Shown one piece after another: positions 8,206 to 55,716 of a DNA stretch of 64,000 nt. A program made the translations under genes and the position numbers. Origin of the DNA: Geosiphon pyriformis (Eukaryota > Glomeromycota > Glomeromycetes > Archaeosporales > Geosiphonaceae); the NCBI GenBank assembly GCA_016748015.1, contig JAAOMT010000128.1:2193426-2257425 (forward strand). The letters are read 5' to 3'. Every line of letters begins with the position of its first letter. The first letter of the stretch is position 1. The notes beneath the pieces were generated by a model, which saw only the letters and a list, made by a program, of their open reading frames with translations, ran no database searches and was not told where the DNA came from.

Positions 8206-9586
8206 TCAATATTTCGATGCAGATTCTTTTGGACATTGCCCTAGCAAAAACCCAAAATATGGACCCATATGATTTTCCTTAATATAGATTATACTATTAT
8301 GAATAAATTTCCGATATTTTGCATTACATTCCTATCGAAATAAAAATATCATAAAAGAGGAATTCCAAAATTAAGGTAATAAAAATCAAAGAAAAATTCT
8401 AAAGAACTTACTGGATTTTCGGCAAAATTTTCTTTGCTGGGACAAATGTATATTTCTGGAAAATTTCCTGTGATCTCTGGGGGACTGATATCGTCCATAG
8501 AATTTACAAAACATTCACAATTTTCTTGTTTTGGAATCCAAAATTCAGTTCCCACATGACTATATAGATTTGACTTTGGGAACGCTGGAATAATGTCATC
8601 AAAATGGGTTACTCGATAAACTTCTAATTTAATATTAACTAATGAAGCAAAAATTTGATTTCCTATTTTTGGTTGACCGAATGTGACTACTATTGGTTTT
8701 TCTGCAGACATAGAGGTAAGGGCGAGGGCTGCAAATATTGCAAGAGCTGTAACCATGCTAATGTGTCAATACTTAAAGTGAAAAAATTTGTAAATTCAAA
8801 GGAGCCACCTGAATGTAAAATTAAACATTAATTACCACTACTACCCCCAAACCCAGTAAACGTTAGTTTGGGTTTTCCGTCGGGAAATGGGCTTCCAATA
8901 TAAAATGGTAAAAGATTTCTCAATACTTTTCCTTTAACTTTAATCCAGTTCAGGTAATAAATTTCGTCAACTTGAGCACCTAGAAGCGATTTTTCATAAG
9001 GGACTAGGATTGCTTTTCTCAAAGCCCAAGCTTTGTAATGAATTTCGAGTGTTTTAAACGCAATCGTGATTTCTAATTGAGAATTTGGAGTATTTGGTGG
9101 TGGTGTTTGTTTTTGAAAAGTCCATGCTTTTGCTGTTAATATGAGGATAATTTTTTTTTTAAATTTTTATCAAGTTATTCAAAATTTATGTATATAGTTT
9201 AGAAATTTAATAGATTGATGCCAACCCCAGACATATTTTTCCAAGTGATAGACTCTCTCTTTGAGGCAGGCTGCTTCCCTTGCAAAAAATGCTGCCGAAG
9301 CCATTATGTCTAAACGTACTGGATCGGTAAACTTTATTTTTGTGAATTGTGAAACATGTTTCTCATCAAGTTGGCTCATATCAATATGTCTTGGGCTCAA
9401 ATTCGATAATCCGTTTGAGTTAAGTACCAATTTATTAAGCATGGGAGTGTATTTTATGACGCTCAACTGAATCACTTCATAAAAGATAAGACTCAGAACG
9501 CAAAGCTTTCCCATATCTCTGGAGATTTTTTTGAAATAACAGGTAGTTGGCAACAGAAAAAATTCTTTTAAAAATTTTAAAATCAT
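8206..9586 (-). CDS. L2: lipase-like protein, elbow G-F-G-G-S-S (no nucleophile)
   Basis: Exons 9586-9226, 9132-8836, 8746-8412 and 8331-8206; 372 residues. It starts at ATG 9586 and has a hydrophobic segment at about residues 29-46, so it is probably secreted or membrane-anchored. Family marks: A-A-C-L at the end of the N-terminal helix, V-V-T-F-G-Q-P-K, T-H-F-D-D-I-I-P (catalytic Asp kept), H-V-G-T-E-F-W-I, and a final exon with H-M-G-P-Y-F-G (catalytic His kept) and a terminal Cys. The nucleophile elbow (residues 214-219) is G-F-G-G-S-S instead of G-H-S-x-G-G: the Ser is Gly, the elbow His is Phe, and the two Gly are Ser. Hydrolysis is therefore unlikely. It is convergent with pseudogene L1 and lies downstream of L3 on the same strand. 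Confidence 0.87.
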
Positions 9587-10097
9587 TTTGCATCCAAGTA
9601 ATTTTCAAATTTGTTTTAACAAGAATTAAGTAGCTTTTTTTTAAGATTTTTCATATTTATTTATTTTTGTGGTTGGAAAGAATTTCCTATCTGATAGAAA
9701 TTCAGATATGCATTATGAGATTATACACTAAGGCCGTGATAGATAATGCAAACAACAAAATAGCGACTTTAAAACCTGATTAGAAATTAGCTCGTAAAAC
9801 TAATCTTTTCAGATGAAAATGATTTATTTTCTTAGCCTCGAAGAGGTATAAATTGTTCTCGGTTTGAATTATTTAATTGAGAAGTTTTTATATAAAAAAA
9901 CTGTCAAATCTGTACACATATATTTTGGTTTTTTTTTAAAAAAGTTAAAAACTTAAATAATAATGGTTAAAAATAATATTTAACAACGAATAAAAGTTCT
10001 CGCTAAGGTTTTGAAAAAAACGTCAAGCTAGAATTATTTTGTAAAATTAAAAATTGGGATGTTAAATTAACATTATTGAGCCATCAAGAAAGACTTC
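9587..10097. other. Intergenic between L3 and L2
   Basis: AT-rich, with no coding signal. It holds the 3' flank of L3 and the promoter region of L2. No clear TATA box could be assigned. Confidence 0.5.
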
Positions 10098-11492
10098 TTA
10101 TTGCATGAAGATGTTGTTCAAATTTTCCAAATAGATTTGATCATTCTCAAATTGAAGAAAAGGACAAACTCCCATATAATGGCCGAAATATGGACCATTG
10201 TGTGCATGTCCCCCCATAGTTTTACTACCTTTATTACATTGCTAGAAGATGATAATACAAGTTCAGCCTTTAGGAAATCACGTAGAAAAAAGGTTTATCA
10301 AGATTTCAAACTTACATCACTTTCTGTGTAAAATCCATTTTCAATTGGTCCATGACAAACGTACACTTGCTCATTTTGATAGCAGTCACAATTTGCATCA
10401 ATCCAAACTTCGACTGCGTGATGAAATAATGGAACTTTGGGCTTATCTATCGGTAACCGTGGAATAATATCATCTGAGTGAGTGACACGAAAGGCTATTA
10501 GGTTTTTCTTACTTAAACTGTTAAACCATTTGGCGAACTCATAATTTCCAATGGGAGGTTGTCCAAATGTAAAAACTTCTACTCTATCGTTGCCTTGTGT
10601 GTTGTGTAAAGTTGCAGCTGCAAACATTGCATAAACTAAAAAGTAAAAATATCAAATTTCTCAGTGAATGTTCAAAATGACTCAGATTTTACAAATTTCT
10701 TACCACCACCCAGGCTATGACCAATAAATCTGACGGTATCTATTTGTTTATTTGATGTCCCCTGTAGAGTTTTTACAATTTTCTCCTTCAAAATTGTCAT
10801 ATTAGAAAAAGAATTCCAGAAATTTCGATCCACTTTGATGATTGAAGAGAAGGGTTCGTAATTTCCAAGTGTAAAAATTTTATCTAACCATTCTTCACGT
10901 GTTGGATTAATTCCACTGAAATAAATGACCAAATCATTTCCATTTTGTTCATTTCTGGCGATAATCGATTTGGCTTTGATTTATGTTACACAAAAATCAC
11001 GAGAAGTTAAGGATAAAGTTATTCCAAAAATTTAAAAATTAAAATCACAAACAACGACAAATTTTTACCAAATACTCCTGGAGCCACTTCATCGCCATCT
11101 TTATTCTTCAAGCAATATGCCAAACTAGCATATGCAGCAGAATTATCAAGTCTTTCTTTGAAAAGTCTCTCATTACCACCGATAGCAAATTTTCTGCCTT
11201 TTTCGGAAGGTAAAGCACTAATTAATTTTGAGTCAAAATTTTTGAAAATATTTCTTTTCGTCTTGTTGGTGAACTTTAAAATTTTGAGAAAATCATGTGA
11301 AATATCAGATTTGTATGAGTTTAAAAGGAATTTATTTTTTTGGAGGGTGGAATGATTTATATTTAATGAAAAATAAAGGAAGTGTAAAAAGAATGAAAGA
11401 ACCGTAGAGAACGCTATAAAGATAAAAATTTTTTGGTTCCTATGCAAACTCTTAATACTCCCATTACAACAAGAATTTGTGAACTTGTGCAT
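10098..11492 (-). CDS. L3: class 3 lipase-like protein with intact Ser-Asp-His
   Basis: Exons 11492-11069, 10973-10704, 10635-10316 and 10241-10098; 385 residues. A short basic N-terminus is followed by a hydrophobic segment (about 22-45), so it is probably a secreted or type II membrane protein. It is the only member with all three catalytic residues of the Rhizomucor miehei-type lipases: Ser228 in G-H-S-L-G-G, Asp in T-H-S-D-D-I-I-P, and His in A-H-N-G-P-Y-F-G in the last exon. N-terminal A-Y-C-L and C-terminal M-G-V-C match the disulfide partners of that family. The position equivalent to the oxyanion-hole Ser after F-x-G is Ile (F-S-G-I), so activity or substrate may be unusual. Its closest relatives here are L13-L16. 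Confidence 0.92.
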
Positions 11493-13030: not shown

Positions 13031-13034
13031 AGGG

Positions 13035-15155: not shown

Positions 15156-15163
15156 TATAAATA
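15156..15163 (+). promoter_or_regulatory. TATA box of L4
   Basis: TATAAATA, 73 nt upstream of the L4 ATG at 15229. The same octamer lies 71 nt upstream of the L5 ATG, which supports both boxes and both start codons. Confidence 0.5.
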
Positions 15164-15228
15164 ATTATATGCATGTAATCTTTGCATAAATAAACTTTTT
15201 ATCCCGAATTTTGACTTTTTGCAATATC

Positions 15229-16635
15229 ATGAGTGAACTATTCAAAACACAAAATTTTTTCAAGATTTTAACTCATTTGAGTTTATACATTTACTCACTA
15301 GCAAAATCAAAGCCTATAAGAATAAAATATATTTTTCTTTTCGCTTTATTTTTGCGAAAAAACCAATCAAAAGCTTGGAATAATGAAGGCTTTTTTCAGA
15401 ACACAACCCTAAAAAATGTGATAGTTTCCAAAGCCTTTTATCAAAGTTACACTAATAATAATAATAATAATAATCTGGGTTTTGATGCTCCTGAAATATT
15501 GGCTCAAAGGTCCTTAATCATAAATAATGAGGTTGACCCTTATAAAATCAAGGTCACGTCTATGGAAACTTTGCGTTTTTTGAGAGAAATGGCCATTTAT
15601 GCCCGTGAAGCATATTGTAAAGGAAGTGATGACGAGGACCGTTATTTCGAACCAATTGGTGATCAAATAATGACAAACTAATTTTAAATTTCTCAAATAT
15701 TTTCAATCTTTTAATCAAGCTATTTCAATTTTTTCTATCACTCCCTCAGTAGGAGCAAATAGAAAAGGAATTATCCAAGGGGTTTACCAAATTACGGTTT
15801 TTATAATTTCGGAAACACTTTGGGCTAATGATATTTGGTCACATAAGGAAGCTCTGATACAATATGGCTCAGAACCAGGTTGGGGTAGGGTTGATGCAAA
15901 GTGGTTTAAAGAGTTTTTGGATCATGAAAAGAAGTTATTGGATGCAGCAGATCATTTAATTACAGATCCTACTGCAATTTACCAAGTAGTTTTTACAGGC
16001 CATAGTTCAGGGGGTGGTAGGTTTTCCAAATATTTTGCTGAAGCTTTTAAATGCAAAATTGATTATATCTTACCAAATATTTGTTATTGAAATTTTAAAT
16101 TAGTTCTGGCATTATATGCGGCTTTAGCTTTCAAAAGAAAGCATCCCTCAAGACCAGTAAATGTCGTTACTTTCGGATCTCCAAGACCTGGTGATCAAGA
16201 TTTTATTAACCATGTGACGAGCATTTTTCCACAATTATATCGAGTAACGAACTTTAAAGACTTTTTACCGCATATTGGAAACAAATATGAGGGATACAGA
16301 CACCCGCACACTGAATATTGGATATCAAATGAAGAAGATTGTAATTGCCCAGAAGATTTTGGTCCAATTCTTTATAAATGTCTTCCAAAAGTACTTACAT
16401 TGAATGGAAAATTTATAGATGAGAATCCGGTAAGCTTTCTTGTAGCTTTATTATCAATGTTCCCATAACTTTGAGTAAGTAATTTAAGTTACTTTAAAAT
16501 TGATGTTTTTAGTATTGCCATGGAGGAACTATACCTGACAAAGGAGCTGACAACATAAGATCAAATAAGAACCCATATTTTGGTATCCTGTTATCTTGTT
16601 CTGGAATTCAAGATTCCATGTTAGGAGATATCTAA
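15229..16635 (+). CDS. L4: lipase-like protein, Ser kept, catalytic His replaced by Asn
   Basis: Exons 15229-15658, 15750-16016, 16104-16429 and 16513-16635; 381 residues. ATG 15229 is the first ATG in frame and sits 73 nt after a TATA box. A hydrophobic segment at about residues 30-43 is followed by a run of seven Asn encoded by an AAT repeat. Family marks: R-E-A-Y-C, G-H-S-S-G-G (Ser229 kept), V-T-F-G-S-P-R-P-G, N-F-K-D-F-L-P (Asp kept), R-H-P-H-T-E-Y-W-I-S. In the last exon the H-x-G-P-Y-F-G motif reads N-K-N-P-Y-F-G, so the catalytic His is Asn. It is closest to L5, L6 and L9. Without its general base it would be at best very slow as a lipase (inference). Confidence 0.9.
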
Positions 16636-19585: not shown

Positions 19586-21119
19586 ATGTTTCCAGTACAA
19601 GAATTAAATATTTCTTACCTTTTAAAGATGTTATGTATCATCATTCGAAAGAAGACCAAAAGTCACTTTACAATTTTATTACTTTCAATAGCATGTGTAA
19701 TTACAATCACATTTACATTCAAAATCATCGCTGAGAAACAAACTCACATCAAAGAATCTTTATCAATACATGATAAGATAGAAAGAACAATAAATCAAAC
19801 AGAAATAGGAAAATATATCAATAATTTGACAGCTCATGTAGATAATCTTAATTTCAATCTTTCAAACATCCCGATATCTCAAAACAAAACCGCTCTTACA
19901 CCGATCATTGCTCCAAGAGTCCCTGCAAATTCGAATAAATCAATAAGCCTAAAGAACCTTCAAAAAAGAATAAACCTTCAGACATCTCCAAAAGTAACTG
20001 GTGAGGATCCATACAAAGTACGAGTAAAAAATCAAACCACTATAAATTTTTTAAGAGATATGGCTCTATTATCAAGCAAAGCATATTGTTTGGCGGCTGA
20101 CAACTATTTTCACCACCAATTTCTTACAGGTTCGTTTTTTATCTGTTAATTACTTATTTGTTCCTGAATACTAAACATGATCGACTGATTTTTAAATATA
20201 TTTTTTGGATGGATCTTTGACAGCCGGTGTAGATGAACAGGTCATACCAGAAAAGCCAAATGTTCATCAAGTGGTGGTATATATTAATGCAAAACTAGGA
20301 AATCAAGCTCGAACTAGGCAACGACTAAACAGATTGAAGCAATACCCGGATTCAAATGCTGATGCTAGAGCTCAAGTTGATTCAGATTGGTACACACTAT
20401 TCAAATATGAGGAGTATGGATTAATATCCATGGCAGAAAAGAAAATGGTAAAACATAACATTATATATGAGGTCATATATACAGGTCATGCTCTTGGTGG
20501 GGGTAAGTCTTCTTTCACTTATTTAGTGCCATTCCATTCATTTTAATATTTAAATATTGCAGCAAAAGATTGACAATAACAGTTCCACTCATTCTTTCTT
20601 GAACAGTTATGGCAATTTTCGCGGCATTGGCATTTCACTCAAAGTTTCCAAACGTTATGACAAATGTAGTCACATTTGGTTCTCTTCGGCCCGGTAATCA
20701 AATATTTGCTGATCACGTATCAACAACCTTTCCTAAGCTTTATCGTGTTGTGAATTTTAATGATTGGTCACCACATATGCCACCTGTGGATGAATCTTTT
20801 CGACATCCAAGTACAGAATATTGGATTTCAAGAATAGGTGATTGTAATTGTACAGATGAATTGGATATACCACTTTACAAATGCTTCCCAAAGAAATGGC
20901 AGATGCATGGAAAATATATCAATGAGAATCCGGTAAATATCTTCCCATATTAAAAATATTAAATGCGTTTCAACTGACCAAAAATCTAACAATCACTCTT
21001 AAACGGTTCTTTAGGATTGTCATTTCAGCACGATACCAGAGAATAGCAATTTTTCGATAGACTCACATCAGGCGCCATATTTCGGGGTCCATATGGGGTG
21101 TAAAGAAATGATGATATGA
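19586..21119 (+). CDS. L5: lipase-like protein, nucleophile Ser replaced by Ala
   Basis: Exons 19586-20129, 20224-20502, 20607-20932 and 21015-21119; 417 residues. The N-terminus has a basic cluster then a strong hydrophobic helix (about 28-48), typical of a signal anchor. A long polar linker (to about 160) leads into the lipase-like domain: M-A-L-L-S-S-K-A-Y-C-L, V-V-T-F-G-S-L-R-P-G, N-F-N-D-W-S-P (Asp kept), R-H-P-S-T-E-Y-W-I-S, and S-H-Q-A-P-Y-F-G in the last exon (His kept). The elbow is G-H-A-L-G-G: Ala271 stands exactly where the nucleophile should be, as in a laboratory-style active-site knock-out. It is tandem with L4 and L6 and of the same subgroup. Confidence 0.9.
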
Positions 21120-22288: not shown

Positions 22289-22346
22289 ATTGCCAAAATT
22301 AAAAATGCATATCTTGCAACAAAAACTAGAGATACGCTGGGATATC

Positions 22347-23594
22347 ATGAAAATGTTAAAATCGTTTCAAATATTTATAATAAATTCTTTACTAGGGATT
22401 TTCCTAATTAAAACATACTCGAAATTAAAATCTCAGAATGGGTTTGAAATCTCTTTCCAGAGGGCTTTCCTAAAATTCAACACTTTTGAATTTCTTCATA
22501 AACGATCTTCAAGACATGAAAGTTCAACGGTATTCGAAGTTCATGATATAGAAACATTAAATTTTCTAAAAAAAATGGCTATCTATGCCAGAGAGGCTTA
22601 TTGTATTCCACCCAAAGGCCCTTTTACATTCATTCCTATTCGAGGTAAATACGAAACCTTGAAAAATATATAACGTTTTCAGTATTTTGAATGAGATCTA
22701 TGACCAGTTAATACTTTTGTTTTTATACATGTATAATGGAAGCTGACTCCAAAGTAACGATAATCCTTCCTGGTGTTCATCAAATCGTTGTCTATATATT
22801 GGGCGATGAAGAAAAATCCAAGAGTTATTCATGGCCTTTAAAAAGTTCCCTTACTCCATACCCTAATATCAACGTTGGAATGGTTGATTCGATTTGGCTG
22901 AATTTCTATCTTCAGTATGAAAAATTTTTAATTGAGTTGGCAGAGAACAAAATGAAAAATCTTGAGGGTGTTTTCCAAATTATTTATACTGGACATGATC
23001 TTGGTGGTGGTGAGTTTTCATTCTGTATTTTGGAGCAATTTTAAAAACAGATTCTAATTTTTCATTCAGTATATGCGATGTATGCTGCTTTGGCATTTAA
23101 AAGAAAACATCCACTGATATTCACAAATGTCGTAACTTTTGGATCACCGCGTCCTGGGGATGAAGTTTTCGCTAAACATGTAAATACTATATTTCCAAAC
23201 CTTTATCGTGTGACAAATATGGGAGACTGGGCACCCCAAACCCCGAATATCAAATACAAATATCGACACCCACACACAGAGTATTGGATATCTTCTCAAA
23301 AAAATGATTGTGATTGTCCAAATACTTTCGGTTCTGTAGTTTATAAATGTCTCCCTACTTTACACTACATCAACCGATTGGAAACTACAGATGAAAATAT
23401 GGTATTTAACAAAGTTTAAATCTTTGATTTGATTATTTTCAATTTGATAATACTTTTTCTATGAACAGTACTGCCTTACAAAAACTGAATTCAGTGACGA
23501 ATTAGAAAATAGGCGTCATCATATCGGTCCTTATTTTGGTTTGAAAATGTTTTGTACAGGAAGTAGTGACTCAATGCTTCAATCGCTGTCATAA
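22347..23594 (+). CDS. L6: lipase-like protein, nucleophile Ser replaced by Asp
   Basis: Exons 22347-22644, 22743-23009, 23070-23401 and 23469-23594; 340 residues. ATG 22347 was chosen because of its distance to a TATA-like box and because it puts the hydrophobic segment (about 8-20) right at the N-terminus; ATG 22305 would add 14 residues. Marks: M-A-I-Y-A-R-E-A-Y-C-I, V-V-T-F-G-S-P-R-P-G, N-M-G-D-W-A-P (Asp kept), R-H-P-H-T-E-Y-W-I-S, R-H-H-I-G-P-Y-F-G (His kept). The elbow is G-H-D-L-G-G with Asp185 in place of Ser. The intron-1 acceptor is the weak GGAAG. It belongs with L4, L5 and L9. Confidence 0.88.
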
Positions 23595-25203: not shown

Positions 25204-26300
25204 CTATCCCATAATATAACCAAAATAAGGCCCGACATGTGCCTGAGTTTCGCGATTTGGAAGTTGTAGTCGATATCTTTTATTGCAACCCTATTTATTA
25301 AATTTAAGCCCCAAATTGAACTTGGCAACTTATAATTTTAGCAAAATATCCAATCATTTGCAGTGATGGATGGAAAAAACTTAGCCGGATGCTCCTTGCG
25401 AAAAGAATAACATCGATATATCAAAAGACTATCTAAATCTGAAGATTTGACTCATTTTTCTTCAAGTGAACAGTCACAATTCACTGGTGATATCCAATAT
25501 TCCGTTGAATGGTGAAGAAACCGACCATTATCAAAAAATAAAGTTACTTAATCATCAGAATGGGTTATACGATTTACAACCAATACGCTATCTAAATAGG
25601 ATGAAAATTCCTGGTATCCAATACGAGGTTCACCAAATGTAGTAACTTCTATGTACATTTTTGAATTGGTGATTTCCCGAAATCGAAGAGCTGCTAATAG
25701 AGCGAAGACTGAAAATTTTCAAGAAAAAATTGCATTTTATATTTTTAAATTTACAATTAAATAACCAAAAATTCGTACCAGGGCTTTCTCCATGTCCTAT
25801 AAACAGATAAACAAAATATCGAAAGGGTGGTTCACGCAAAAATCCTCCTAGGATGTTGATGACCCTTTTTTTCAGCTTTTGCTCATCGATCGTTGTAATA
25901 TGCTGCCAAGATTCTGATATTTGCAATTTTCTGTAGGATGCAAAAAAACGGTTTTATTCTTGGAGTTGGTATAAGAAATTATAGTCTAACTTTCTATCTC
26001 CACGAAATCTGGCCACAATAGCACGTTTTTTGATATCATTCAAAATTACAGAATATTGGTTTGGCAAGATCCATCCTTCAAGAATTTATACATGAATCAT
26101 AAAAAATTAGTATACAAAATGCAAAAAAATTATCCCTTTTTATTATTTTAATTGAAGATTATTTACCAAAAATTTCTTCTGTAAGTTGGCCACTCAATGG
26201 ATTTAAGCAATGCGTTAAGGCAGCGGAATTTGGAATCGTTGCAAAGTATCTTTTTCCTTCAAAAGGCACTTCCTTCATGAATAGTTCTTTTTTTAAAATT
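25204..26300 (-). pseudogene. L7: lipase-like pseudogene
   Basis: The four-exon order is still visible: exon 1 remnant with T-H-C-L-N-P (about 26275-26168), exon 2 (about 26090-25779) with I-V-A-R-F-R-G and elbow G-H-G-E-S-P, exon 3 (25708-about 25375) with V-T-T-F-G-E-P-R and H-H-S-T-E-Y-W-I-S, and exon 4 (25290-25204) with C-N-K-R-Y and A-H-V-G-P-Y-F-G. Breaks: a stop and frameshift in exon 2, a TAA after T-H-S-D-D and a TGA in exon 3, a GC instead of GT at the intron-3 donor, and a stop directly after I-M-G that removes the terminal Cys. The N-terminal hydrophobic segment is not recognisable. A Tigger-like transposon sits about 200 bp upstream. It resembles L8, L11 and L12. Confidence 0.82.
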
Positions 26301-26540: not shown

Positions 26541-26767
26541 GATAAAAGAACAACCTCTTACAAAGAACATTTTTTTATAGTACCAATTGATTAATTAACA
26601 ATTTTCCCTTTATATAGGAACAAAAACATAATTTTATCAAACGTTTATTCGAAATTTACCTTCATATAAGAACAAATATCACATGCTAGATGTTAATTGG
26701 TAATTGGAAAAAGAGTTAGAATGTATTGAATTGATTTCATCCTAACTTTATTTTAAATCGATTTACA

Positions 26768-28592
26768 TTGGACTTACTCTTTTTGATCTTGTCTGTTTTC
26801 ACGTACAGCCACTTAGTCCCTATTGTATTCCAATTCAGGCTTGCTAAAACCAAATCTAATATTATCATTATAGGCACATTTTCTAACAGACTTGCTAAAT
26901 TATCACCTTTATTCAAAAAACAAAAACGAGCAGCAGTTAATGATGCTCTTTGTAAAGAAATTTGTCAATATTTCAAAAATTACTATGGCACGAAACATGA
27001 TGATATTATAGCTTACTTCAATCATAAATATCCAGAACTTCATATTTCTCGTCCAACTGTCTCCAAGATAATCAAAGAGCATGCAAAGTGGTTGAATATT
27101 GAAATTGATGAAATCTCCGAAAGATCTATTTGACACAAAAGCATTAAATTTCCATTATTAGACCAAGCTTTAAGTTATTGGGTAGAACAAGTAACTGCAG
27201 CCACTATCGAATTCAATGATCAACTAATTAAAGAGAAAGGAAAAGAATTTGCCAAACTTCTTGGTATGCACGAAAATGAAATGCAATTCTCAAATAGATG
27301 GATTCAAAAATTCAAAAAACGAAACCAGTTACATATTTACCGATTTCATGGTGAAGCAGGAAGTGTATCAACTGAAAGTTTACCAGAAGAATGAAGAAAA
27401 TTAAAAACCATTATATCCGAATTTGATCCTGCTGACATATATAATGCTGATGAAACAGGATTATTTTTTCGTATGGAACCAAATCAAACACTTGCAAAAT
27501 GTTGAAATGCAGGAAAAAAATTGGTATATTATATTTACCAATTGTTATCGTTATATATTATTATTATATTAAATTAATTGGGTTTTTATAGGATAAATCT
27601 TGGATTACAATTCTTCTTGCTACAAATTCAACTGGATCTCACAAATTGCAACCTTTAGTAATTGCACGTGCAAAAAATCCAAGATGCTTTAAAGGAATTA
27701 ATACTTCCAACCTACCTGTGATTTACAAATTCAATTCCAAAGCATGGCTCAAATATATAAATGAAGGCTATCGAATTCAAAATTAGCATATATTACTTTT
27801 GGTTGATACTGTAACTTCTCATACTTAAATCGGGGAAGATTCATTCCAATTGACCAATATTACTTTGCACTATTTTCCTCCAAATACTACATCACATCTT
27901 CAACCAATGGATGCTGGCATTATCAAATCTTTCAAAGGCAAATATAAGCACTTATATTGTCAACAGATTTTACATCAATTTGAACAAAAAATTAATATTG
28001 AACAGTTAAGTAATATAATATATACATTATTATTATCATTATATATTATATGATTTTATCTAATATTAATTTATTTTTTAGAAATAAATTAAACATAAAA
28101 CAAGCAATTGATTATGTTGTTCAATTATGGTTTCAAGTAACACCTGCTACAATTCAAAACTGTTGGCAAAAAACGGATATTCTTTTCTATAATCAAGAAT
28201 TAGAAATTCAAGAATCCGAAACATTAATTGCTATGGATATATTCAACAATTTACCATCAAATGCACAACAATTGGTCAAAAATCTCGAAGATTATACTGT
28301 AGCAGTTGATGAATTATTGGCAACTGAAAATATACTTGATGATAATGAAATTGTAGATATGGTTTTAGCCGATGCTCAAATTGAAACCAATACAAATAAT
28401 GACTCGGAAGAAGAATTAGAAAAATCTCCACCTGCTATAATTACAATTACAGAAGCATATGAAGCATTAAAAAAGGTAATTAGATTTGAAGAGCAATTAG
28501 CAGAAGAAAATTTTAGTATAGAAAACCAAAATTTACTTAGAAAAAAATTATATGAATACGAAAAAATGAGGAAAATTCTAAAAAACAGGTAA
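26768..28592 (+). pseudogene. Tigger/CENP-B-like transposase, broken by stops
   Basis: Domains in order: N-terminal helix-turn-helix (C-K-E-I-C-Q-Y-F ... I-S-R-P-T-V-S-K-I-I-K, about 26937-27085), a second Tc5/CENP-B type DNA-binding helix set (L-D-Q-A-L-S-Y-W ... W-I-Q-K-F-K-K, about 27155-27320), and a DDE core with Y-N-A-D-E-T-G-L-F-F (about 27440-27470), L-L-L-V-D (about 27795) and H-L-Q-P-M-D-A-G (about 27895-27920). A likely intron follows K-K-L at about 27525-27591. In-frame stops occur at 27131, 27392, 27503, 27784 and 27826, and no in-frame ATG precedes the first helix. The C-terminal part (28080-28592) is open. It is inactive, but decay is limited to point changes. Confidence 0.82.
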
Positions 28593-28753: not shown

Positions 28754-28755
28754 TA

Positions 28756-29142: not shown

Positions 29143-30605
29143 ATGAAACCAAGCAGTATTTTCATGCTTGGTTTTTTAATGAGCTCATATCTTTTGGTCA
29201 CACTATTTTTAAATTTAAGAATTAGCTTTAAACATTTGATATTAGTAGGAAAATTTTTTTTGACTCAAAATAAAATTCATATTAACTTAGAGAAAGACAA
29301 TTTAACGGATATAAAAGATTTACAAAATTTGGGAATTTTTCACGATCAAAGTGAAATATTGTATAAATACAATTATACGAGTTTGGTTACAAATGGTGAA
29401 ATTGTAAATAAGGGCCAAAATATTGAAAGAAAATTATTCACCAGAGCCACAAGTATTTATTATAAAAAGGAAGTTCCTGCAAGGAAACTTTTATTATTTT
29501 CTCAAGCTGCTAGATTTGCTCATGAGACGTACTGTTTCGACCCATTAAAGGCAAAAGTAGCAACAGCTATATTTTCAGGTAGGTCTTTAACAACTTGGTA
29601 CTTTTCAAGATTTAAAAGATTTTCAAAATTGGAAAGACTAAAATGTTCCATCATTTTAAACCAAAAGCTTGGATTTCAACAAGTTTGGAACCCTTAGCAG
29701 TAGAATCTGGTCCGAGAGAAGCAATCGTAGTAAGTTTTAGAGGAAAAGAGCTTATATACGATGAAATGGGTCGAATATATGTATCTAGTTATCAGCGCTT
29801 ATATGACCCTAAGAAAGTGAAAGGAAAGGCTTGGGTGTTAAAAGAATTTTACAATGATCGATTTTTGAAGGCTAAAGATGAAGTTATACGAAATCTCCAA
29901 AATTATTTGAAGTATCGAACTTTTAAAAAAAAAATTTTTTTGTTTACCGGTCATGGTGAGGGTGGAGGTTTGTTTTCTTCAATTGGAAATTTCTCTTAAA
30001 AATAATTTTTGGAAAGAAATTTATTATTTAAAATTTTTTTTAATCAAGTTATTTTTATTAGTATTTGCAGCTCTTGTTGCTTTGGAATTTGAAGAAATTA
30101 TTCCCCAAGATCAAATATATGTCATCACATTTGGACAACCACGAATTGGAGACAAAAAATTCACACAATACGTAGAATCTAGGCTATCCAATATTTATCG
30201 TATCACACATGCCGATGATTATGTTCCCTTGTTTTTCGGCGAAATTGCTGTACATTTAAATACAGAATACTGGATACCGAAGGAGGAGGAATGTGATTGT
30301 ATTGAAATGGATTTAACAATTTTTCCAAGATTTATTTATGAATGTGGTGCACCTGTTGGAAAGGAAAATCCGGTTAGTAAAAAGATATTGGGAGATAAGC
30401 AATAAAGAAAAGAATTCAAGTTTTGACTTTATTATATTTTATATTTGCTTTTTCCATAATTTTTCTGGTTTAGGACTGTAACAATCAATTTCTCGAGAAA
30501 AATCGAAAGACTTGGAAGTTCACTACAGCTCACAATGGTCCTTATTTCAACTACAAAATGGGAGAATGTGATGATGATCTAAAAGAATTTTTAAATTCTA
30601 CATAA
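29143..30605 (+). CDS. L8: lipase-like protein, elbow G-H-G-E-G-G
   Basis: Exons 29143-29578, 29668-29967, 30062-30372 and 30474-30605; 392 residues. A hydrophobic N-terminus (about 7-24) begins almost at Met1. Marks: A-H-E-T-Y-C-F, V-V-S-F-R-G-K-E-L (oxyanion-hole region, Lys where Rhizomucor lipase has Ser), V-I-T-F-G-Q-P-R-I-G, T-H-A-D-D-Y-V-P-L-F-F (Asp kept), H-L-N-T-E-Y-W-I-P, A-H-N-G-P-Y-F-N (His kept) and M-G-E-C. Gly242 replaces the nucleophile Ser. The intron-1 acceptor is AAAAG. It groups with L7, L10, L11 and L12, which share D-D-Y-V-P-L-F-F or close variants. It converges with L9. Confidence 0.9.
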
Positions 30606-34535: not shown

Positions 34536-35826
34536 ATGATGTTATTCTTCTCGGTTGCGACCATCACAATCCTTTTCATTTGGATATACTTTTACTTTAC
34601 GATTAGACTTGATTCTCATAGCGTAATTCATTTTGAACAAACATTGAAAGGAAATAGTGCTTTTTTTGTTAATACTAAAACTGCTTCGGAGAAGAATAAG
34701 TTCCCTCAAAACACTGAGTTTTTTTTGACAAAATATCTCCATCTGCCCAAACGCTCTGTATATGAAAATGAGTCTCCATTAAAAGAAATTGATGATATAG
34801 AATATCAATACCTGACGTTAATGGCCAAGTATGCACAAGAGGCTTACTGCTTTGACAGTAGTAAATTGATAGCACCAAAAATATATGGTAAATATTAATT
34901 GTTTCTTAACTTGTCAAAAATTAAGAAGTTAAAAAGTGAATATTTTCTTTCGGAAAGGATCAATTTTTGCAACAAATCAATCTTTAACTGGTCTAGTAAG
35001 AAACGGTCCTGGAGTAATACCTATCATAGCAACATTTTCCACTCCAGAATTAACCTATGATGAATTGGCAAAAATGGAACAGAAGAAACTTTTAGTTGAT
35101 TCCCCAATTTCTACCCGAGGATATATTCTGGCTGACTTCTATGAAAGATACTGGAATATCGCAAATAATGTGGTAACAGAGATGGTACAGCCTTTCTTAG
35201 AAGATAGAAAATATGCAAAACATACATTTTGCTTTGTAGGTCATGGTGGTGGTGCTAGTATGTAATAACTGTTTCAAAAAGTTATACTCCAAAGGAATTA
35301 GAAATAATCAAATTTAATACTTTTGCCAAACCAGTAATAGCAACGTTTGCCGCGGTAATATTGAAGCACTCTAGAGCGGAGAAATGGGTTCGATTAACGA
35401 CATTTGGTCAACCACGAATTGGAGATTTTGCTTTTGCAAAATTAATCGAAAGAACCCTTGTTAGACGAGTAACTAATGCTGATGATTATGTGCCCTTGTT
35501 TTTCGATTATATTTTGGTACATTACAAAGGGGAGAGATTTATTTCACCTAGGAGTATTTGCGAATGTGATGGACAAGCCCAAGTAAATTCACCCAAAATC
35601 TTTGCCTGTATAACATCTCGTCTTCAAGAACATCCGGTTTGCTCGATTAATTTTGCTTTGTAATTTCAAATCAATAAGATCAAATTTAAATTCTAATTTT
35701 TGTTTACAGGAATGCAATAAAAGATACCAGCAACCAAAATCTAAGCTGCCATCAAGAGATACAAATTCTCACATTGGACCATATCTTGGGTATTTGATGG
35801 ACAGAAACTTTTGCCATTTTCCATAA
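34536..35826 (+). CDS. L10: lipase-like protein, elbow G-H-G-G-G-A
   Basis: Exons 34536-34887, 34958-35257, 35335-35636 and 35710-35826; 356 residues. The hydrophobic segment starts at residue 2 (to about 22). Marks: M-A-K-Y-A-Q-E-A-Y-C-F, T-T-F-G-Q-P-R-I-G, N-A-D-D-Y-V-P-L-F-F (Asp kept), V-H-Y-K-G-E-R-F-I, S-H-I-G-P-Y-L-G (His kept). The elbow is G-H-G-G-G-A with Gly214 at the nucleophile position. The second elbow Gly is Ala, so the donor codon of intron 2 differs (A|GT instead of G|GT), but the frame is kept. The usual M-G-x-C end reads M-D-R-N-F-C. It converges with L11. Confidence 0.88.
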
Positions 35827-39707: not shown

Positions 39708-40984
39708 ATGAAAAATAAAGACTCATTGATTCCGAATTTTTTTCGATGGATTTCCGTCCTATGTATACTTATCATATTTAATGAAATTATAAAAATCAAT
39801 TACACTTTTCATGCATTACAAATCAAAAATTCTCAAAATCTCTCAAATTTAAGCAGCAAAGAACATGATTCTTTGTTTATTTCTTTAAGTGAAAACGAAA
39901 AATCATTAACTCTCCGACAGCAAATAGATCAACCATTGAAGAAAAAATGGAGAGTTAAGGACTCAAATACGTTTTCAGTTTTGAGGGATATGGCAAAATT
40001 TTCAGGACAATTATACTGTCTGAATAAATATAGTGGCTATTTGTCAAATGGAGTCACTGGTAATTTTTTTTAATTCTCGAAAAAAATTAGAAAAAAACTA
40101 ATTTAAATTCTTAATTTAAGCTTTATTCCTTTTAAGAGGAAAAACCTACTCAATTTCGTTTAATCAACCAAGGAAAGCAATTATATCCAGCTTCAAGGGT
40201 CAAAATTTGACTTATGATAAAATGGTAGATTTACATCAAAACGATGAACTTGTAAACTATAATAATGATAAAGTATACAAAGTCTCTAAAAATTTTTATA
40301 ATCGATGGCTTTCATGTGAGGCAGAAGCATTGAGAATTTTACGTCCATACGTTTACGTTCGAGATTACCAAGACTTTGGTTTTATATTTACAGGTCATGG
40401 AGAAGGAGGAGGTAAATTTTTTTATTTTCTATTATTTAGAAGTTTATAATCTCATGTAATAGTTTAACCTTGTGGCAGTTAACTCATTTATGTTTCACTT
40501 TTTTCAAAAGTCTTTGCCTTATTCGCTGCTTTGGCTTTTGCCAGGCTTTATAGAAGAAGAATACTTGCGGTAACTTTTGGGATGCCTAGAATAGGAAATT
40601 ATGCATTTTCGAGACTTGTAGAGATAGAAATTTACCACTGGAGAGTGACCCATAGCGATGATTATGTGCCTTTATTTTTTGGAGAAAAGTTTTGGCATCA
40701 AAGAGTTGAGTATTGGATCCCAGGTGACCGCGATTGTAACTGTGACTCAGAGAATGACATTCCTTTATATAGGTGTGAGAATCTGTGGCTTGTTTTCGAA
40801 AATCCGGTAGGAAATTAATTTGATGTTTGAGTTTTTCCAATATTCCTGTTCTAATTTCTAAAGGTTATTTTAGCATTGTAATCAACTTTATATGCCACCA
40901 AAACCCCTGCTTCCATTCCCACATACTACTGCACATGACGGGCCTTATTTTGGTCAATTAATGGGCGAATGTAATGGCCCATAA
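39708..40984 (+). CDS. L12: lipase-like protein, elbow G-H-G-E-G-G
   Basis: Exons 39708-40059, 40139-40411, 40511-40806 and 40874-40984; 343 residues. ATG 39708 is the only in-frame ATG before the hydrophobic segment (about 15-30). Marks: M-A-K-F-S-G-Q-L-Y-C-L, S-S-F-K-G-Q-N-L, V-T-F-G-M-P-R-I-G, T-H-S-D-D-Y-V-P-L-F-F (Asp kept), H-Q-R-V-E-Y-W-I-P, A-H-D-G-P-Y-F-G (His kept) and M-G-E-C. Gly205 replaces the nucleophile. The frame requires the intron-1 acceptor AAGAG at 40134-40138. It groups with L8 and L11. Confidence 0.9.
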
Positions 40985-42240: not shown

Positions 42241-43782
42241 ATGAGAAAATCTCAAATTCTTGAAACGCAAGATAGGAACAAATTCTCGTCAATTATTTTC
42301 TTTGTCTTTTCCTGTCTATTGATAAATGGAGTGATTCTTTATAATTTTAAGGATACAAATATTTTATCAAAAAATTTTGAAAAAGATGAATCTTTGATTT
42401 CAAAAAATCTTACAAAATATTTTTTAAGATCCAAAGATTATATAGATGGTAAAAATTTTATTAAAAAAAGATCAAGATTTGGGAGTGGAAACCAAATGAT
42501 AAGATTTTATGAAGATGATGGTAATCCATTAATTAAAATTCTAAAAAATGCAGCAAAATATGCTAATTTAGCTGACTGTTTAAAAGACGAAGTTGATATG
42601 GTGGGACCTGGAGTATTCGGTAATTTCTTTTTATTAAAAAATGAACATTATATATATATATATATTTTAAGCCTTGATTAAATAATTTAATATATTATTT
42701 TAATTTAATATATTCTTTTAAACTTTATATTTTTTCTTCAGCTAAATTTACGATTAATACTATAAACGAGAAGGTCGAGGTTAATTTTTACTTCAAAGGC
42801 GAACACTTGACTCGTGAACAATGGTTGAATCGAAAATTTAATATGAGGGATCATCCTCGTTACAATTTGGTAAAAGTAGATGAACAATTTTGGAGTCAAT
42901 GGGAGTCATCTGCCGATAAAATTCGAGAAAAATTGAATCAGGTGACGAAAGAATTGGAAAAAGAATCGATTAATGACTATGTCCTCAACTTAATTGGGCA
43001 TGGTATTGGGGGTGGTGAGTTGAGATTATATATATTACACCCTGAATACATTTAACATAATAATAAGACTATCAATAATAATAATTCTTTCTTTTCTTTT
43101 CTTTTCTTTTCTTTTCTTTTCTTTTCTTTTCTTTTCTTTTTCTTTCTTTTTCTTTCTTTTTCTTTCTTTTCTTTCTTTCTCTCTTTTCTTTCTTTCTCTC
43201 TTTTCTTTCTTTCTCTCTTTTCTTTCTTTCTTTTCTTTCTACTTTCTGCTTTGGTTCAATAGTTCATGCGATCTTAACGGCAGCGGCATTATGTGAGGCA
43301 CAAGATAGTGATATAATCAATGTTTTCACATTTGGGCAGCCACGAATTGGAGACCAAGTATTCGCGTACTACATGAACATGTTACAAATAGATGAGGATT
43401 TAGACTTGAGAATTTTTCGTATCACAAATTCTGATGACTACGTTCCTCGTTTGCCATTTTATCCATCTATTCGTGCTGTTCATCATGCTTTGGAAATTTG
43501 GATTCCCCCTGATATTCCATCTGAATGTGAATGTCCGGAAGGTAAAATATTTTATGTTTGCATCGGGCCAATTGAAAATGAAAATGAAGGAATCATGGAG
43601 GAAAGCCGGGTAAGACTTTGAAAAAAGAATATTTAAAAATTCAAAAAATGTTCTTCAAAATAATTTTGTTTTTCAACTCTACATTTTAGCAATGTAACAA
43701 TAAATATGAACAAACCCAATTGGGTACCGATTCGACACATTTTGGACCTTATTTTGGATATTTCATGGGAGGGTCATGTTAA
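42241..43782 (+). CDS. L13: lipase-like protein, elbow G-H-G-I-G-G
   Basis: Exons 42241-42619, 42742-43014, 43263-43609 and 43690-43782; 363 residues. The hydrophobic segment is at about residues 17-34. Marks: Y-A-N-L-A-D-C-L, G-P-G-V-F-G at the end of exon 1, Y-F-K-G-E-H-L, V-F-T-F-G-Q-P-R-I-G, T-N-S-D-D-Y-V-P-R-L-P (Asp kept), H-H-A-L-E-I-W-I-P, T-H-F-G-P-Y-F-G (His kept) and a terminal Cys. Gly214 replaces the nucleophile. Intron 2 (248 nt) is the longest in the family because of a pyrimidine repeat. It belongs with L3 and L14-L16. Confidence 0.9.
43085..43240 (+). repeat. (CTTTT)n/(CTTT)n pyrimidine tract in intron 2 of L13
   Basis: About 155 nt made only of C and T on the coding strand, first CTTTT units and then mixed CTTT/CTCTTTT units. 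It ends about 20 nt before the acceptor at 43262. It forms a giant polypyrimidine tract for that 3' splice site and could adopt triplex (H-DNA) structure. Confidence 0.95.
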
Positions 43783-51440: not shown

Positions 51441-51943
51441 TACTTTCGTCTTTTTGATGGAAAAAAGGTGATAATAGATATTTTGATCTATATACCCTGA
51501 TCTTGAATGTAATAACTTATTTAATACTTTTACTCATCGCCGAGAAAGGCAACCAAGTTTGTTTGTTTCAAAGCAAAGAGAATTCGCATGTTAAGAAGGC
51601 AGCTTAATTCGGTTTGTAAATATTTTATAAAAAAATTTATCAAAATTAAAGCACTCGATAAAAGACAATACAGTTGCGGATTCGCCAGATCTCGTGATAT
51701 CCGGACTAAACCGGTATGATATTTTGAAAATCAGTCCAGCGATATTTATTCTTTTGAACCATTCAAAAAACACTTTTAAAGGTACAATATCTTTATAGTA
51801 AAAGACAATCTGTTGGAAATTCAAACTGCTAATAGCTGTTCACTTTTTTCTATGATTATATTTATAATTTACTAATAATATATATATACAACTTTGTTTA
51901 GCTGAAAATCTGTTGAAAACTTTTGGCAAATTTTTTTTTCCAA

Positions 51944-51983
<40 letters not shown>

Positions 51984-52469
51984 AATAATGAAATAAAACC
52001 CCAAAATAATAATTAATTTAAAAAAAAATTATTAAATTACATTCAAGTTCAACATAATAAAAAATGTTAGTCAAAAACAAATTTTAACAAAACTATTTAA
52101 TAGAATTAAACCATTAAATAAAACCAAAAAGTATTTATAAATTATTTGTAATAATATTAATAAAGAATGATCTCATTATATACTGGGTAATAAATAACTA
52201 TTGTAAAAATATAATTTATAATTTATTATACCAAATTAAAATATGATAGCAGCCTTGGTTCGATTAAAGGACTTTATTGTAAAACTACAGTATATTATAT
52301 CAATTATTTGATTAAAATAGTAAAAAATTTAATGTAATCAGATTAAATAGGAACTTAACATTATAATAGTAAAAATGACTTTTGTTACTTTAATATTTTA
52401 ATTAGCTTGAAAATTTACTTTATTTTCAGTATTTCTATTTTTTCAGTTTTAGACCTAGCATTGTAAATA
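51441..52469. other. Intergenic, AT-rich with (ATT)n
   Basis: Upstream region of L16. It contains an (ATT)n array at about 51948-51981. The minus-strand frame at 51591-51824 has no motif. Nothing else was seen. Confidence 0.5.
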
Positions 52470-53690
52470 GGCATTGCTATGTGTCTCTATTATTTGCGGG
52501 TAAAAAATCTAGTGAATTTTACTTTGCAAATGTATATAACTTTTTGCCAATTGCAAACTATACATCCAATAGAATGTCCACTAATCTTATCTACATCTTT
52601 TGTGGGAGAGTACTATATAAAAGGTGTACAGGGGTCAGGATAAATAGACTGCATGAACAGAGCCTTCTACTTGGATTTTCTGGAGCTGCTTTGCCTCTCG
52701 TATACTTAGGCAAACTTCCACTTACTAGTTTTGCAATAGTGAGCTTGTCGTCCAAAATTAGCATGTGAGTAACGGGCTACCTATTATTGACTTTTTTTAA
52801 AAATGAAGTGGCCATGAAGCACTTGTATCATTATTAAAAGTGGTGTGCATGAACCCCATTTCAGAGTCTCTTGTTTTAATGGCGTCTTTTGCTGCCTGAA
52901 CATTTTTGAACCAATATGGTATAAAAGTGGCAATGTCGACTCCAGTAGACAACAGTATTATAAGCAAATCTCGTCAAGCCCAACCGCTGCTTCCAGAGCT
53001 GCTTTTGAAGATGATTGGATACACCTTTGATTGATAGTATACAGTTGAGAATATCTTTGACGTTTGCTATGAACTGCTGTAGCTTTTCTCTTGGAGGCTT
53101 TTGCCTGTTTTGACACTCTCATTGATTGCAGGCAGCTCTCCTTCCCTGCATGCAGTAGGGAAAGAGTGTATTTATAGTAAGAATGTCTTTTAGAAGTTCA
53201 TGCTTGTCGGAGGTTGCATTGTTGAAAAAAACCAAGAGTTTTGCAGAATGAGAAAAAAGATAATTACAAGAAGTTAAAGGCAAATCGGCAAAGCATATTA
53301 TGGTGAGTAACCAAAATTTACAAGACCATTCCACGGCTTGCTCATTCCAATGGGGTCTTAAGTCTCAATCTTTTGAAATTGAAATCTGACCTGATATCGC
53401 TGAAGAGTTTCTTTGATTAAAAATTGAGAAAGAAGGAGTTGCTTTTGTCGCTCGAGATTCCCTTTTCGCTTTCCATCAGAAATACTGGTGCGGAGGTGGT
53501 GGCGGTAGTAATGGTATCAGCATTTTGAGAATTTAGCTCAGGAAAGAGAAAGGTAGTAAGAGAAAAAGGGGGGTATTTATTTTCGCGATTTTGATCATGA
53601 TAAGCATTACTAAACAACTGATTGGTATTATTATTAATAGGCACTATTAACCAAACCTTTTCATTTTTAGAATTTGGTCCCAAAAACTCA
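52470..53690 (-). pseudogene. Fanzor relic lacking its 3' third
   Basis: On the minus strand this copy starts with the shared 5' terminus near 53640 and continues through the N-terminal block with L-R-P-H-W-N-E (about 53345-53365) and the open frame 53334-53119. It reaches the RuvC-I neighbourhood, where V-E-G-S-V-H-A-V can be read at about 52640-52670, but a small deletion destroys the D-P-G core. The match continues to the N-I-L-L-D-V block near 52560 and then fades, so RuvC-II, the zinc ribbon and RuvC-III are missing. Stops and frameshifts are frequent. Confidence 0.65.
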
Positions 53691-54177
53691 ATTTATAAAG
53701 ATATTAATAGATGAAAAAGAAACTGAAAAATTTATAATTATTTCAATAGTCTATCATGCAAAAAAGCGATAATTCTAATTTGATTTTCAGCGATATCACA
53801 GTCTTGAATTTTTGATATTTGATACGTTGAAGTTACTCATTTCATAGAGGTTATATTCAAAGAGTTAAGTTCTTATCCTTTCTAAAAACTCAAAATTGAA
53901 TAAATAAAAAAACTTAAATTTATTAATAAATAAAACTTTTTGATACAAAAACTTGAGTTTGTAAACCAATTCCAAAATATTTCAATTTAAATCTTTACTC
54001 TTTTTCGATATTTTCAATACCGGAAACGGTATCAAGTTTTGTAATATATGAACACGAATTTTTTCGCATCCATTTAATCCTTCATTTTAAATATCGCCTC
54101 GTTTTGGGAAAAGTATAATAAACCAAACAACAATACACATGTTTTCTGTTAAACTGTAATTTATATATACTAAAATA
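53691..54177. other. Intergenic downstream of L17
   Basis: 3' flank of L17. AT-rich, with no feature seen. Confidence 0.5.
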
Positions 54178-55716
54178 TTACATATCATGTTCATCTCCCA
54201 TAAAATACCCAAAATAAGGACCATTATGCGATGATATTCCATTAATCCTAACAGGATTCTGAGCTCCAGCATTGCAATTCTGTATTTTAAAAGAAATTCA
54301 GAAATGATGAGTTATGAAAGAAATTTGGTTAGAAATCAATTTTAAATTTGAAATAAATAAATAAATAAATAAAAAAGTTTACAGTGTGTTCGGTAAAATA
54401 AAATGTCTCAGGTTTAATTCCGGGAACCATTTCTCCCAAACATTGATATGTTTTGAAAGATGTTCCACAATCACATTTTTCAGATGATATCCAATACTCG
54501 GGATTTGAATGCCAATATCCATCTAAAATATTTGTTTTGGGAGGTAATTGTGGAACATAATCGTCGGTATGTGTGATTCGGTAGATGTAGACGCTATTTT
54601 GAAGGTGTCGTATAAAATTTGCATTTCCTATCCGTGGTTGTCCAAAGGTAAAAATATCGATATGTAATTCAGGGTGTTTTCTTTGAATTTTTAGTCCTGC
54701 AAAAATTGCAAAAACTAGAAGCCAAATTAAAAATTTAGGACGTTATTATTTTCGATTGATACGAAAGGGGAACCCGAATTTACCTCCTCCAATGTCATGG
54801 CCTGTGAGACAGAGACGATAGTGAGGTTTCAAATTTAATAACCTTTGGATATCGTCAATTAAATTTTTTCGATCTAATTCAAACATTTCGTAAAATTCTT
54901 TATCAACAAGCCCTCCGGGAACATAAAGGTAATCTATGAGTGAATTTACACGTTCACTGAAATCTAGCTCATCCATTATTTTGCGTTTAGCCCGTATAGA
55001 AACTATCACTTCACCATTTTTTTTATCGGTAAAAATATCGGCTTTCAATCCAAAAATTTTTAAGTGAGTGAGCTAGAAGAAAAAGTATTCAGACAGAGCA
55101 TAATAAACTCCCCTCAAATTTCTTTACCTTTTAAATTAGCTCCATTTGAATAAAACCCATGAGGAGTTTTGGATGAATATATATCGTGTGCGAAACCGGC
55201 GAATCTACGGAATTGTTCTAGAAGGTCTTGATTATTAATAACATCCTTATAAAAATTTACATGATTCCTTTTACTTTTTAAAGTTCTTTTTTGCGTCACT
55301 TGTGAATCAAACATTGATTCTCTTTTATCAGCATCATCCCAAGTTTTAAATTTTTTTTGAAAAACATGAGTTAGGTCGGTGGCTTGATCCTGATTTAAAT
55401 TGTTCATAATTTTTCTTCTTGAAAAGGGTAATTTCAATTTTGATCGGTTGTCAATTTGATTTGAGAACATTCTTGATTTGTTAATATCCTTGGTGACATG
55501 ATCATTTTTTCTAACTTGATCTATTCGAAATCTTTCAAGTTTAATCTCAAAAGTCCCTTTTAGATAAAGTCCCAATAGAATTGCTAACGTGAATGGCAGG
55601 ATGTAAAAAATTTTTGGAAAGTGATTATTTCTTTTCAAATTTCCGAAATTGGCCCTGAATGCAAAGTTTATTTTAGAGTAAGGTTGTTCTGTTGAAACGA
55701 AAGGTTTGTATAGCAT
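54178..55716 (-). CDS. L17: divergent lipase-like protein, Ser replaced by Asp, disulfide pair lost
   Basis: Exons 55716-55128, 55041-54784, 54714-54383 and 54279-54178; 426 residues, the longest member. A hydrophobic segment (about 36-54) follows a 35-residue basic N-terminus, and a polar linker of about 110 residues comes next. Marks: F-A-G-F-A-H-D-I-Y-S-S (Ser where all others have Cys), F-T-F-G-Q-P-R-I-G, T-H-T-D-D-Y-V-P-Q-L-P (Asp kept), H-S-N-P-E-Y-W-I-S, S-H-N-G-P-Y-F-G (His kept). The protein ends M-G-D-E-H-D-M without the terminal Cys. The elbow is G-H-D-I-G-G, with Asp279 at the nucleophile. Intron 3 uses H-T|GT instead of N-P|GT. It sits at the right end of the array. Confidence 0.88.

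Follow-up and report, generated by a model that had tools for sequence, protein, structure and literature searches.

Introduction

Insect yolk proteins and neuroligins are alpha/beta-hydrolase proteins that lack the catalytic serine, EDS1 and PAD4 are lipase-like immune proteins, and feruloyl esterase A is an Aspergillus enzyme that has no anchor. Large numbers of class-3 lipase genes (Pfam Lipase_3, PF01764) are described from Entomophthora muscae, which carries 348 of them according to the accessible part of the report (PMC11105155), and the accessible parts of papers on arbuscular mycorrhizal fungi describe Sel1 expansion and loss of FAS-I with no mention of a Lipase_3 expansion (PMC6123716, PMC8647823, PMC10629195). 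Here we analyze a cluster of Lipase_3 genes in a 64,000-nucleotide window (the whole stretch of DNA that was examined) of the Geosiphon pyriformis genome, lying on contig C370 (JAAOMT010000128.1) of a 124.7 Mb assembly of 406 contigs. The 15 gene models of the cluster span positions 8206-55716, from the end of exon 4 of L2 to the start of L17, in exact agreement with an initial reading of the DNA alone (the sequence-only reading), and most of them lack the nucleophile serine. Throughout, L1 to L17 denote loci of the window and three-digit names (L0xx) denote loci elsewhere in the same genome.

Results

Most window genes lack the nucleophile serine but keep the catalytic aspartate

The window contains 15 Lipase_3 genes with intact four-exon models and two relics (L1 and L7); the models were spliced by hand from the DNA rather than from RNA evidence. 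The serine of the GxSxG nucleophile elbow is absent from 13 of the 15 genes: ten have glycine at this position, two have aspartate (L6 and L17), one has alanine (L5), and serine is found only in L3 and L4. The elbow residues that the sequence-only reading had listed for L2 to L17, leaving aside the relic L7, all read as claimed (L10 in full is GHGGGA), and GHSxGG is confined to L3 and L4 among the window genes. The catalytic Asp, also said to be kept, is present in 15 of 15 genes, and the His of the exon-4 motif HxGPYFG, on which the sequence-only reading is silent, is present in 12, being replaced by Asn in L4, L14, and L15. This His is taken to be the putative catalytic one, since exon 4 has it as its conserved His and the canonical paralogues L004, L005, L007, L008, L039, and L067 carry it as well; L007 matches the PDB lipase chain 6a0w (expectation value (E) 4e-44) in an alignment running through the C-terminal YFG. 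Among the 15 genes, Ser, Asp, and His are therefore complete only in L3; L4 has the elbow Ser but an incomplete triad, its exon-4 His being Asn.

The family is genome-wide and glycine is its prevailing elbow residue

The pattern GGNCAYNNNNNNGGNGGNNGT, which combines the GHxxGG elbow with a phase-1 GT donor, matched the genome 435 times, compared with 28 matches for the reversed control. Because the 15 models share three intron positions and the pattern matches number 435 versus 28, we conclude that the family is not a product of chance. The census misses elbows of the L2 and L10 type (2 of the 15 window genes), and about 28 of the 435 matches may be chance. Glycine elbows account for 307 matches (control 11) and serine elbows for 44, comprising 38 with AGY codons (control 1) and six with TCN codons (control 1), with other residues in the remaining 84. 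There are thus about seven Gly elbows for every Ser elbow, and serine is present in about one elbow in ten, which extends to the genome the claim that most members lack it. A genome search with the Pfam Lipase_3 profile, in which 150 of 748 candidates were scored, gave 163 matches as a lower bound.

Among the first 100 matches listed, the translated elbow residue was Gly in 75, Ser in 10, Ala in 5, Arg, Phe, and Tyr in 2 each, and Asp, Ile, Cys, and Asn in 1 each. All four glycine codons were used at these elbows (GGT 33, GGA 29, GGC 9, and GGG 4), and the residues that lie one step from an AGY serine (Asn, Thr, Ile, Cys, and Arg) totaled five. Glycine is maintained as glycine through synonymous codon turnover. 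A misread codon or a different genetic code is an unlikely source of the glycines because the adjoining elbow glycines use the same codons.

Glycine members retain both the aspartate and the histidine

Of 99 loci fetched from the rest of the genome, 97 were modeled (L002 and L006 have no elbow pattern and were left out), and the protein alignment comprised 96 rows, the 15 window proteins and 81 others. Ser loci were over-sampled for these models (41 of the 44 Ser pattern matches lie in fetched loci or the window), and a residue-blind subset was analyzed separately. The Asp was present in 52 of 52 Gly rows, 33 of 33 Ser rows, and 9 of 11 rows with another residue; the corresponding counts for the His were 49, 29, and 7. 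Removal of L011 (bad exon 4) and of the duplicates L037 and L058 left 93 members, including 51 Gly rows in which the Asp is one of 12 invariant columns (the Gly on which the rows were selected is also among the 12) and the His is found in 48 (94%), ranking 22nd of 220 columns whose median conservation is 30%. Gly members keep both residues about as often as Ser members do (48 of 51 versus 28 of 32; the difference is not significant, p 0.42). In contrast, Asp and His are never kept together when the elbow residue is Phe, Tyr, Arg, or Ile: each of the four such members (L018, L019, L021, and L092) lacks one of the two (p 0.0001 versus Gly), although L018 and L019 are sisters and the contrast therefore amounts to about three events. 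All six members with Ala, Asp, or Cys, not counting L011, retain Asp and His. The retention of these residues in the Gly class changes the question of mechanism.

Selective constraint and predicted localization

In the Gly class, exons 2 to 4 were modeled with open frames at 42 of 46 loci; the counts are 31 of 40 for Ser and 8 of 11 for other residues. Complete models are open at 30 Gly, 25 Ser, and 8 other loci, and those that are not open may reflect modeling failure. The ratio of nonsynonymous to synonymous substitution (dN/dS, or omega) was estimated pairwise over exons 2 to 4 for pairs sharing 45% identity or more, with individual listing from 50% upward, and the pairs are not independent of each other. 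For 59 Gly-Gly pairs dN/dS ranged from 0.32 to 1.15 with a median of 0.54, and for the ten older Gly-Gly pairs listed (dS 0.8-1.24) omega was 0.32-0.44, and no upper bootstrap bound exceeded 0.63. Three of 14 Ser-Ser pairs were unsaturated and gave 0.28-0.42. The open exons of Gly loci and the omega of their older pairs bear out the proposal that the Ser-less genes are not simply dying.

Most full models of every class have a hydrophobic segment of 17 residues near the N-terminus, as scored by a Kyte-Doolittle window only (Gly, 35 of 40; Ser, 23 of 27; other, 10 of 11). The family alignment also has conserved Cys columns, which fit an oxidizing compartment. These features suggest that the proteins are membrane-anchored or secreted, with a surface or lumenal domain.

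Serine and glycine are interleaved on the family tree

In a tree of the 93 members with feruloyl esterase A as the outgroup, the canonical fungal lipases of the same genome form the base, 15 Ser members branch near it, and a crown group (support 85 in a quick tree) contains 51 Gly, 17 Ser, and 10 other members. At least 15 changes between Ser and non-Ser are required, nine of them forced by starred branches, and a history of irreversible loss would require 28 losses of Ser. A two-state model rejects loss alone, with twice the log-likelihood difference being 20.5 for the full set and 26.0 for the residue-blind subset of 59 tips (58 members and the outgroup); these tests are conditional on one tree, and the rates in the subset are poorly determined. 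Supported clades mix the two residues, namely L034 (Ser) with L074, L036, and L075 (Gly) (99/98), L029 (Gly) with L070 (Ser, codon TCA) (100/99), L071 (Ser, codon TCT) with L098 (Gly) (97/79), and, in the window, L3 (Ser) with L14, L15, and L16 (Gly) (100/98). The TCN serines of L070 and L071 are two changes away from Gly and reachable through Ala (GCN), which is present in the clade of L070.

The oxyanion position, which follows [FY]-x-G, is Thr in all six canonical paralogues; of the 28 Ser rows aligned there, three have Pro (L040, L070, and L071), and apart from Pro, which is also common in Gly rows, the position is variable. These three Ser members sit inside Gly-rich clades and share the oxyanion Pro common in those clades, which is consistent with a Gly ancestry but argues against a return of hydrolysis, as the Pro may keep them inactive. 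Exchange between neighbors could also contribute: the tandem Gly pair L082/L083 on contig C100 is 89% identical in exon 2, 99-100% in introns 2 and 3 and exon 3, 95% upstream, and 88% downstream, a patchwork that looks like a sign of conversion or of exon-limited change, and conversion could shift the elbow from one neighbor to another. Given how the two residues alternate across the tree, and with the loss-only model rejected, Ser was probably also regained, or else moved by gene conversion, with regain being likely but short of proof. The repeated loss put forward in the sequence-only reading thus stands insofar as several replacements arose independently, but a history of loss alone does not.

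Gene models and neighboring sequence in the window

All 15 models have open frames and the three common intron positions, with short spliceosomal GT..AG introns of 60-248 nt. Exon 1 encodes the hydrophobic N-terminal segment and the beginning of the lipase domain, exon 2 ends immediately past the elbow GHxxGG, exon 3 carries TFGxPRxG and the catalytic-Asp motif (RxTxxxDxxP), and exon 4 carries xCN...HxGPYFG..MGxC. Four of the 15 proteins were scanned against Pfam, and L3 (84.7 bits), L8 (65.5), L10 (60.9), and L16 (59.5) all matched Lipase_3 well above the curated cut-off of 22; no other family was matched by these four except for one sub-threshold DUF676 match in L3. The top PDB sequence match of L3 was feruloyl esterase A (E 1.9e-13).

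Asp and His are both kept in the genes that follow unless stated otherwise. The relic L1 (about 6885-7896, plus strand) consists of exon 1-4 pieces in different frames, with frame breaks and a shortened exon 3, and its exon-4 piece matches the family hidden Markov model (HMM) weakly (E 0.22). Next to it are two minus-strand genes, L2 (8206-9586; elbow GFGGSS, Gly; exons 9586-9226, 9132-8836, 8746-8412, and 8331-8206) and L3 (10098-11492; GHSLGG; exons 11492-11069, 10973-10704, 10635-10316, and 10241-10098), followed on the plus strand by L4 (15229-16635; GHSSGG, Asp kept and His replaced by Asn; exons 15229-15658, 15750-16016, 16104-16429, and 16513-16635), L5 (19586-21119; GHALGG; exons 19586-20129, 20224-20502, 20607-20932, and 21015-21119), and L6 (22305-23594; GHDLGG; exons 22305-22644, 22743-23009, 23070-23401, and 23469-23594). 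The second relic, L7 (about 25207-26224, minus strand; elbow GHGES), has in-frame stops in the exon-2 and exon-3 frames, with HMM matches to exon 3 (E 6e-14), exon 4 (E 6e-11), and, weakly, exon 1 (E 0.95).

The glycine genes then follow one another: L8 (29143-30605, plus strand; GHGEGG; exons 29143-29578, 29668-29967, 30062-30372, and 30474-30605), L9 (32063-33512, minus; GHGAGG; exons 33512-33089, 32994-32719, 32631-32303, and 32200-32063), L10 (34536-35826, plus; exons 34536-34887, 34958-35257, 35335-35636, and 35710-35826), L11 (36364-37768, minus; GHGEGG; exons 37768-37327, 37249-36959, 36868-36558, and 36480-36364), L12 (39708-40984, plus; GHGEGG; exons 39708-40059, 40121-40411, 40511-40806, and 40874-40984), and L13 (42241-43782, plus; GHGIGG; exons 42241-42619, 42742-43014, 43263-43609, and 43690-43782). 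Intron 2 of L13, at 248 nt, is enlarged by a CT-rich microsatellite (a CTTTT/CTTTC tract at 43060-43260) that is open in several frames. The last four genes are on the minus strand, namely L14 (44185-45612; GHGMGG, Asp kept and His replaced by Asn; exons 45612-45147, 45069-44761, 44679-44360, and 44289-44185), L15 (46898-48289; GHGIGG, likewise with Asp kept and Asn for His; exons 48289-47911, 47810-47496, 47399-47077, and 46999-46898), L16 (50011-51440; GHGMGG; exons 51440-51014, 50947-50666, 50572-50244, and 50121-50011), and L17 (54178-55716; GHDIGG; exons 55716-55128, 55041-54784, 54714-54383, and 54279-54178). The signal-anchor segments at the N-termini of L15 and L16 are built of poly-isoleucine runs.

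Between L6 and L8, open frames at 26735-28592 (plus strand) presumably belong to a CENP-B/Tigger-like DDE transposase, and outside the cluster lies what we take to be an F-box-like gene in two pieces (57541-58594, minus strand). The guanine-plus-cytosine (GC) content of the lipase cluster is about 20-35%; the region 60001-64000 is strongly AT-rich, with a GC content of 13-15% versus 20-40% in the rest of the window.

Discussion

We favor, tentatively and at somewhat less than even chances, the reading that most family members are silent proteins of the lipase fold that bind ligands and for which the Asp-His pocket is still important. The window genes would then belong to a family of several hundred class-3 lipase-fold proteins, membrane-anchored or secreted, that evolves by birth and death and has common ancestry with the canonical fungal lipases of the same genome. 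In its main expanded branch, where the nucleophile is usually Gly, formation of an acyl-enzyme through the usual serine would be impossible, and most of the Gly proteins retain the Asp-His pair, the elbow glycines, the conserved cysteines, and the C-terminal HxGPYFG strand. Most of these proteins, which probably do not hydrolyze esters by the serine route, may bind ester or acyl ligands silently, either on the cell surface or inside the secretory lumen; the Asp-His pair would form part of the binding site, and a minority of about one in ten carries the serine. In favor of this reading are the prevalence of Gly elbows, the Asp and His kept in Gly rows but not with Phe, Tyr, Arg, or Ile, the synonymous turnover of the Gly codons, the open exons of Gly loci, the omega of older Gly pairs, the N-terminal hydrophobic segments, the Lipase_3 scores of the four scanned proteins, and the match of L007 to chain 6a0w.

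Several observations weigh against this reading. For the 15 young Gly pairs listed (dS < 0.25) omega was 0.43-1.15, with 14 of 15 intervals including 1, values that are compatible with weak constraint, and all ten older Gly-Gly pairs include L009 or L012 and are thus not independent. Values of dN/dS well below 1 in Ser-less members, which the sequence-only reading had named as support for a function, are therefore seen in older Gly pairs but not in young duplicates, most of which have values near 1. From the comparison of older and young Gly pairs with the Ser pairs, we conclude that constraint on the Gly members exists, yet is weaker or slower to appear than in the few Ser pairs. The His has been lost from 3 of 52 Gly members (L14, L15, and L027) as well as from 4 of 33 Ser members. 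Of the 41 Gly rows aligned at the oxyanion position, 17 have proline, and 15 of these 17 belong to a single clade; the proline should impair the canonical oxyanion hole, and perhaps ester binding too, in such proteins. Finally, Asp and His could persist for folding instead of ligand binding.

The interleaving of Ser and Gly on the tree allows two other accounts of the family as a whole. The elbow may be a reversible, genome-wide switch: across about 400 proteins its residue would have changed back and forth between Gly and Ser, while the work done in the Gly state (ligand sensing or general-base chemistry by the dyad alone) held Asp and His in place, and Ser paralogues would have been re-derived from pseudoenzymes; we regard this as possible but fairly improbable. 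In a process of relaxed birth and death, duplication would outpace loss, most copies would do little, the serine would be dispensable, and mutation together with gene conversion would shuffle the elbow states. Glycine suits the strained elbow backbone, and because it relieves that strain, its presence at the elbow would be explained without any new function. The omega near 1 of young pairs, the relics L1 and L7 in the window, the patchy identity of L082/L083, and the interleaved tree all agree with this account, whereas Asp and His belong to the best-conserved columns of the Gly members, the listed older pairs have omega of 0.32-0.44, the frames are mostly open, and Gly is held through synonymous codon turnover; we consider it rather doubtful.

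The kept Asp and His also raise the question of whether the Gly members are enzymes after all. They might catalyze with an Asp-His general base and without an acyl-enzyme, by addition, elimination, or direct attack of water, as retention of the pair in the Gly class and its breakage with bulky replacements would allow. An engineered precedent exists in the Ser105Ala variant of Candida antarctica lipase B, which gained aldolase activity, an Asp-His dyad mechanism having been proposed for lipase aldol reactions, according to the accessible part of the source (PMC8910291). However, this precedent is engineered and belongs to another lipase family, and the oxyanion Pro of so many aligned Gly rows fits dyad catalysis poorly, so that we think the explanation unlikely. 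Ordinary lipases with a relocated nucleophile would likewise retain Asp and His, but a scan for columns whose conservation reaches 60% in Gly rows and stays below 45% in Ser rows turned up no Ser, Thr, or Cys, and we reject this candidate as very improbable. The Ser-less members might instead be regulatory partners, joining Ser members (L3, for example) in complexes and modulating them, as suggested earlier. Ser and Ser-less genes are adjacent in the window, L3 groups with L14, L15, and L16, and pseudoenzymes matter to active paralogues in beetle glycoside hydrolase family 28 (GH28), as far as the accessible text goes (PMC6549527); with some seven Gly elbows to each Ser elbow, however, a partnership of this kind is decidedly unlikely.

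Compared with these alternatives, silent ligand binding remains the reading we prefer. Expanded lipase families of host-dependent fungi tend to be labeled digestive or lipid-scavenging from the Pfam name, and in this genome the serine is present at only about one elbow in ten. The tested members belong to Lipase_3 by their Pfam scores; by the defining serine, most members are predicted not to be active class-3 lipases. Should the host be a mycorrhizal fungus auxotrophic for fatty acids, its main "lipase" expansion would for the most part not consist of lipases. With the Asp-His pair retained and with natural Ser/Gly sisters at hand (L034/L074 and L029/L070), it becomes possible to test directly how catalytic residues disappear, persist, and return.

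The closest described proteins are the fungal class-3 lipases (those of Rhizopus, Rhizomucor, and Thermomyces), which belong to the same family by sequence and share the elbow, the Asp, the His, and the H...ExW motif, L007 being a clear canonical member. Unlike them, most members of the family described here have no Ser, one extra residue lies between the His and YFG, an N-terminal hydrophobic anchor and a long linker are present, and there are several hundred copies. Feruloyl esterase A resembles L3 across the elbow, the Asp, and the C-terminal YFG but is an active Ser enzyme. In yolk proteins, neuroligins, and EDS1/PAD4, a lipase-type fold has likewise been reused without, or independently of, serine hydrolysis, but these belong to other families and kingdoms and have few members, and we know of no Ser/Gly interchange in them. 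Entomophthoralean fungi also have many Lipase_3 genes, which the accessible part of the report reads as host-tissue enzymes without mention of lost serines (PMC11105155). This genome gave no match to a Trypsin profile in a search that was positive in 11 of 14 control genomes, which disfavors an entomophthoralean host, and it has many Sel1 matches (150 of 1991 first-look candidates were put through scoring, with 150 matches). A FAS_meander profile had no hits in the genome but none in its controls either, which does not show absence, and an SSU primer pattern likewise had no hits. We consider it likely that the host belongs to Glomeromycotina, the arbuscular mycorrhizal fungi. A literature search whose coverage left out most subscription papers and bioRxiv preprints found no description of a Ser-less Lipase_3 expansion. 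In beetle GH28, inactive members likewise pile up in an expanded hydrolase family and are functionally important, although the accessible part of that report concerns a glycoside hydrolase family and the digestion of plant cell walls (PMC6549527). Pseudoenzyme expansion is of a known kind, and what is new here is its scale, the kept dyad, and the interchange of Ser and Gly.

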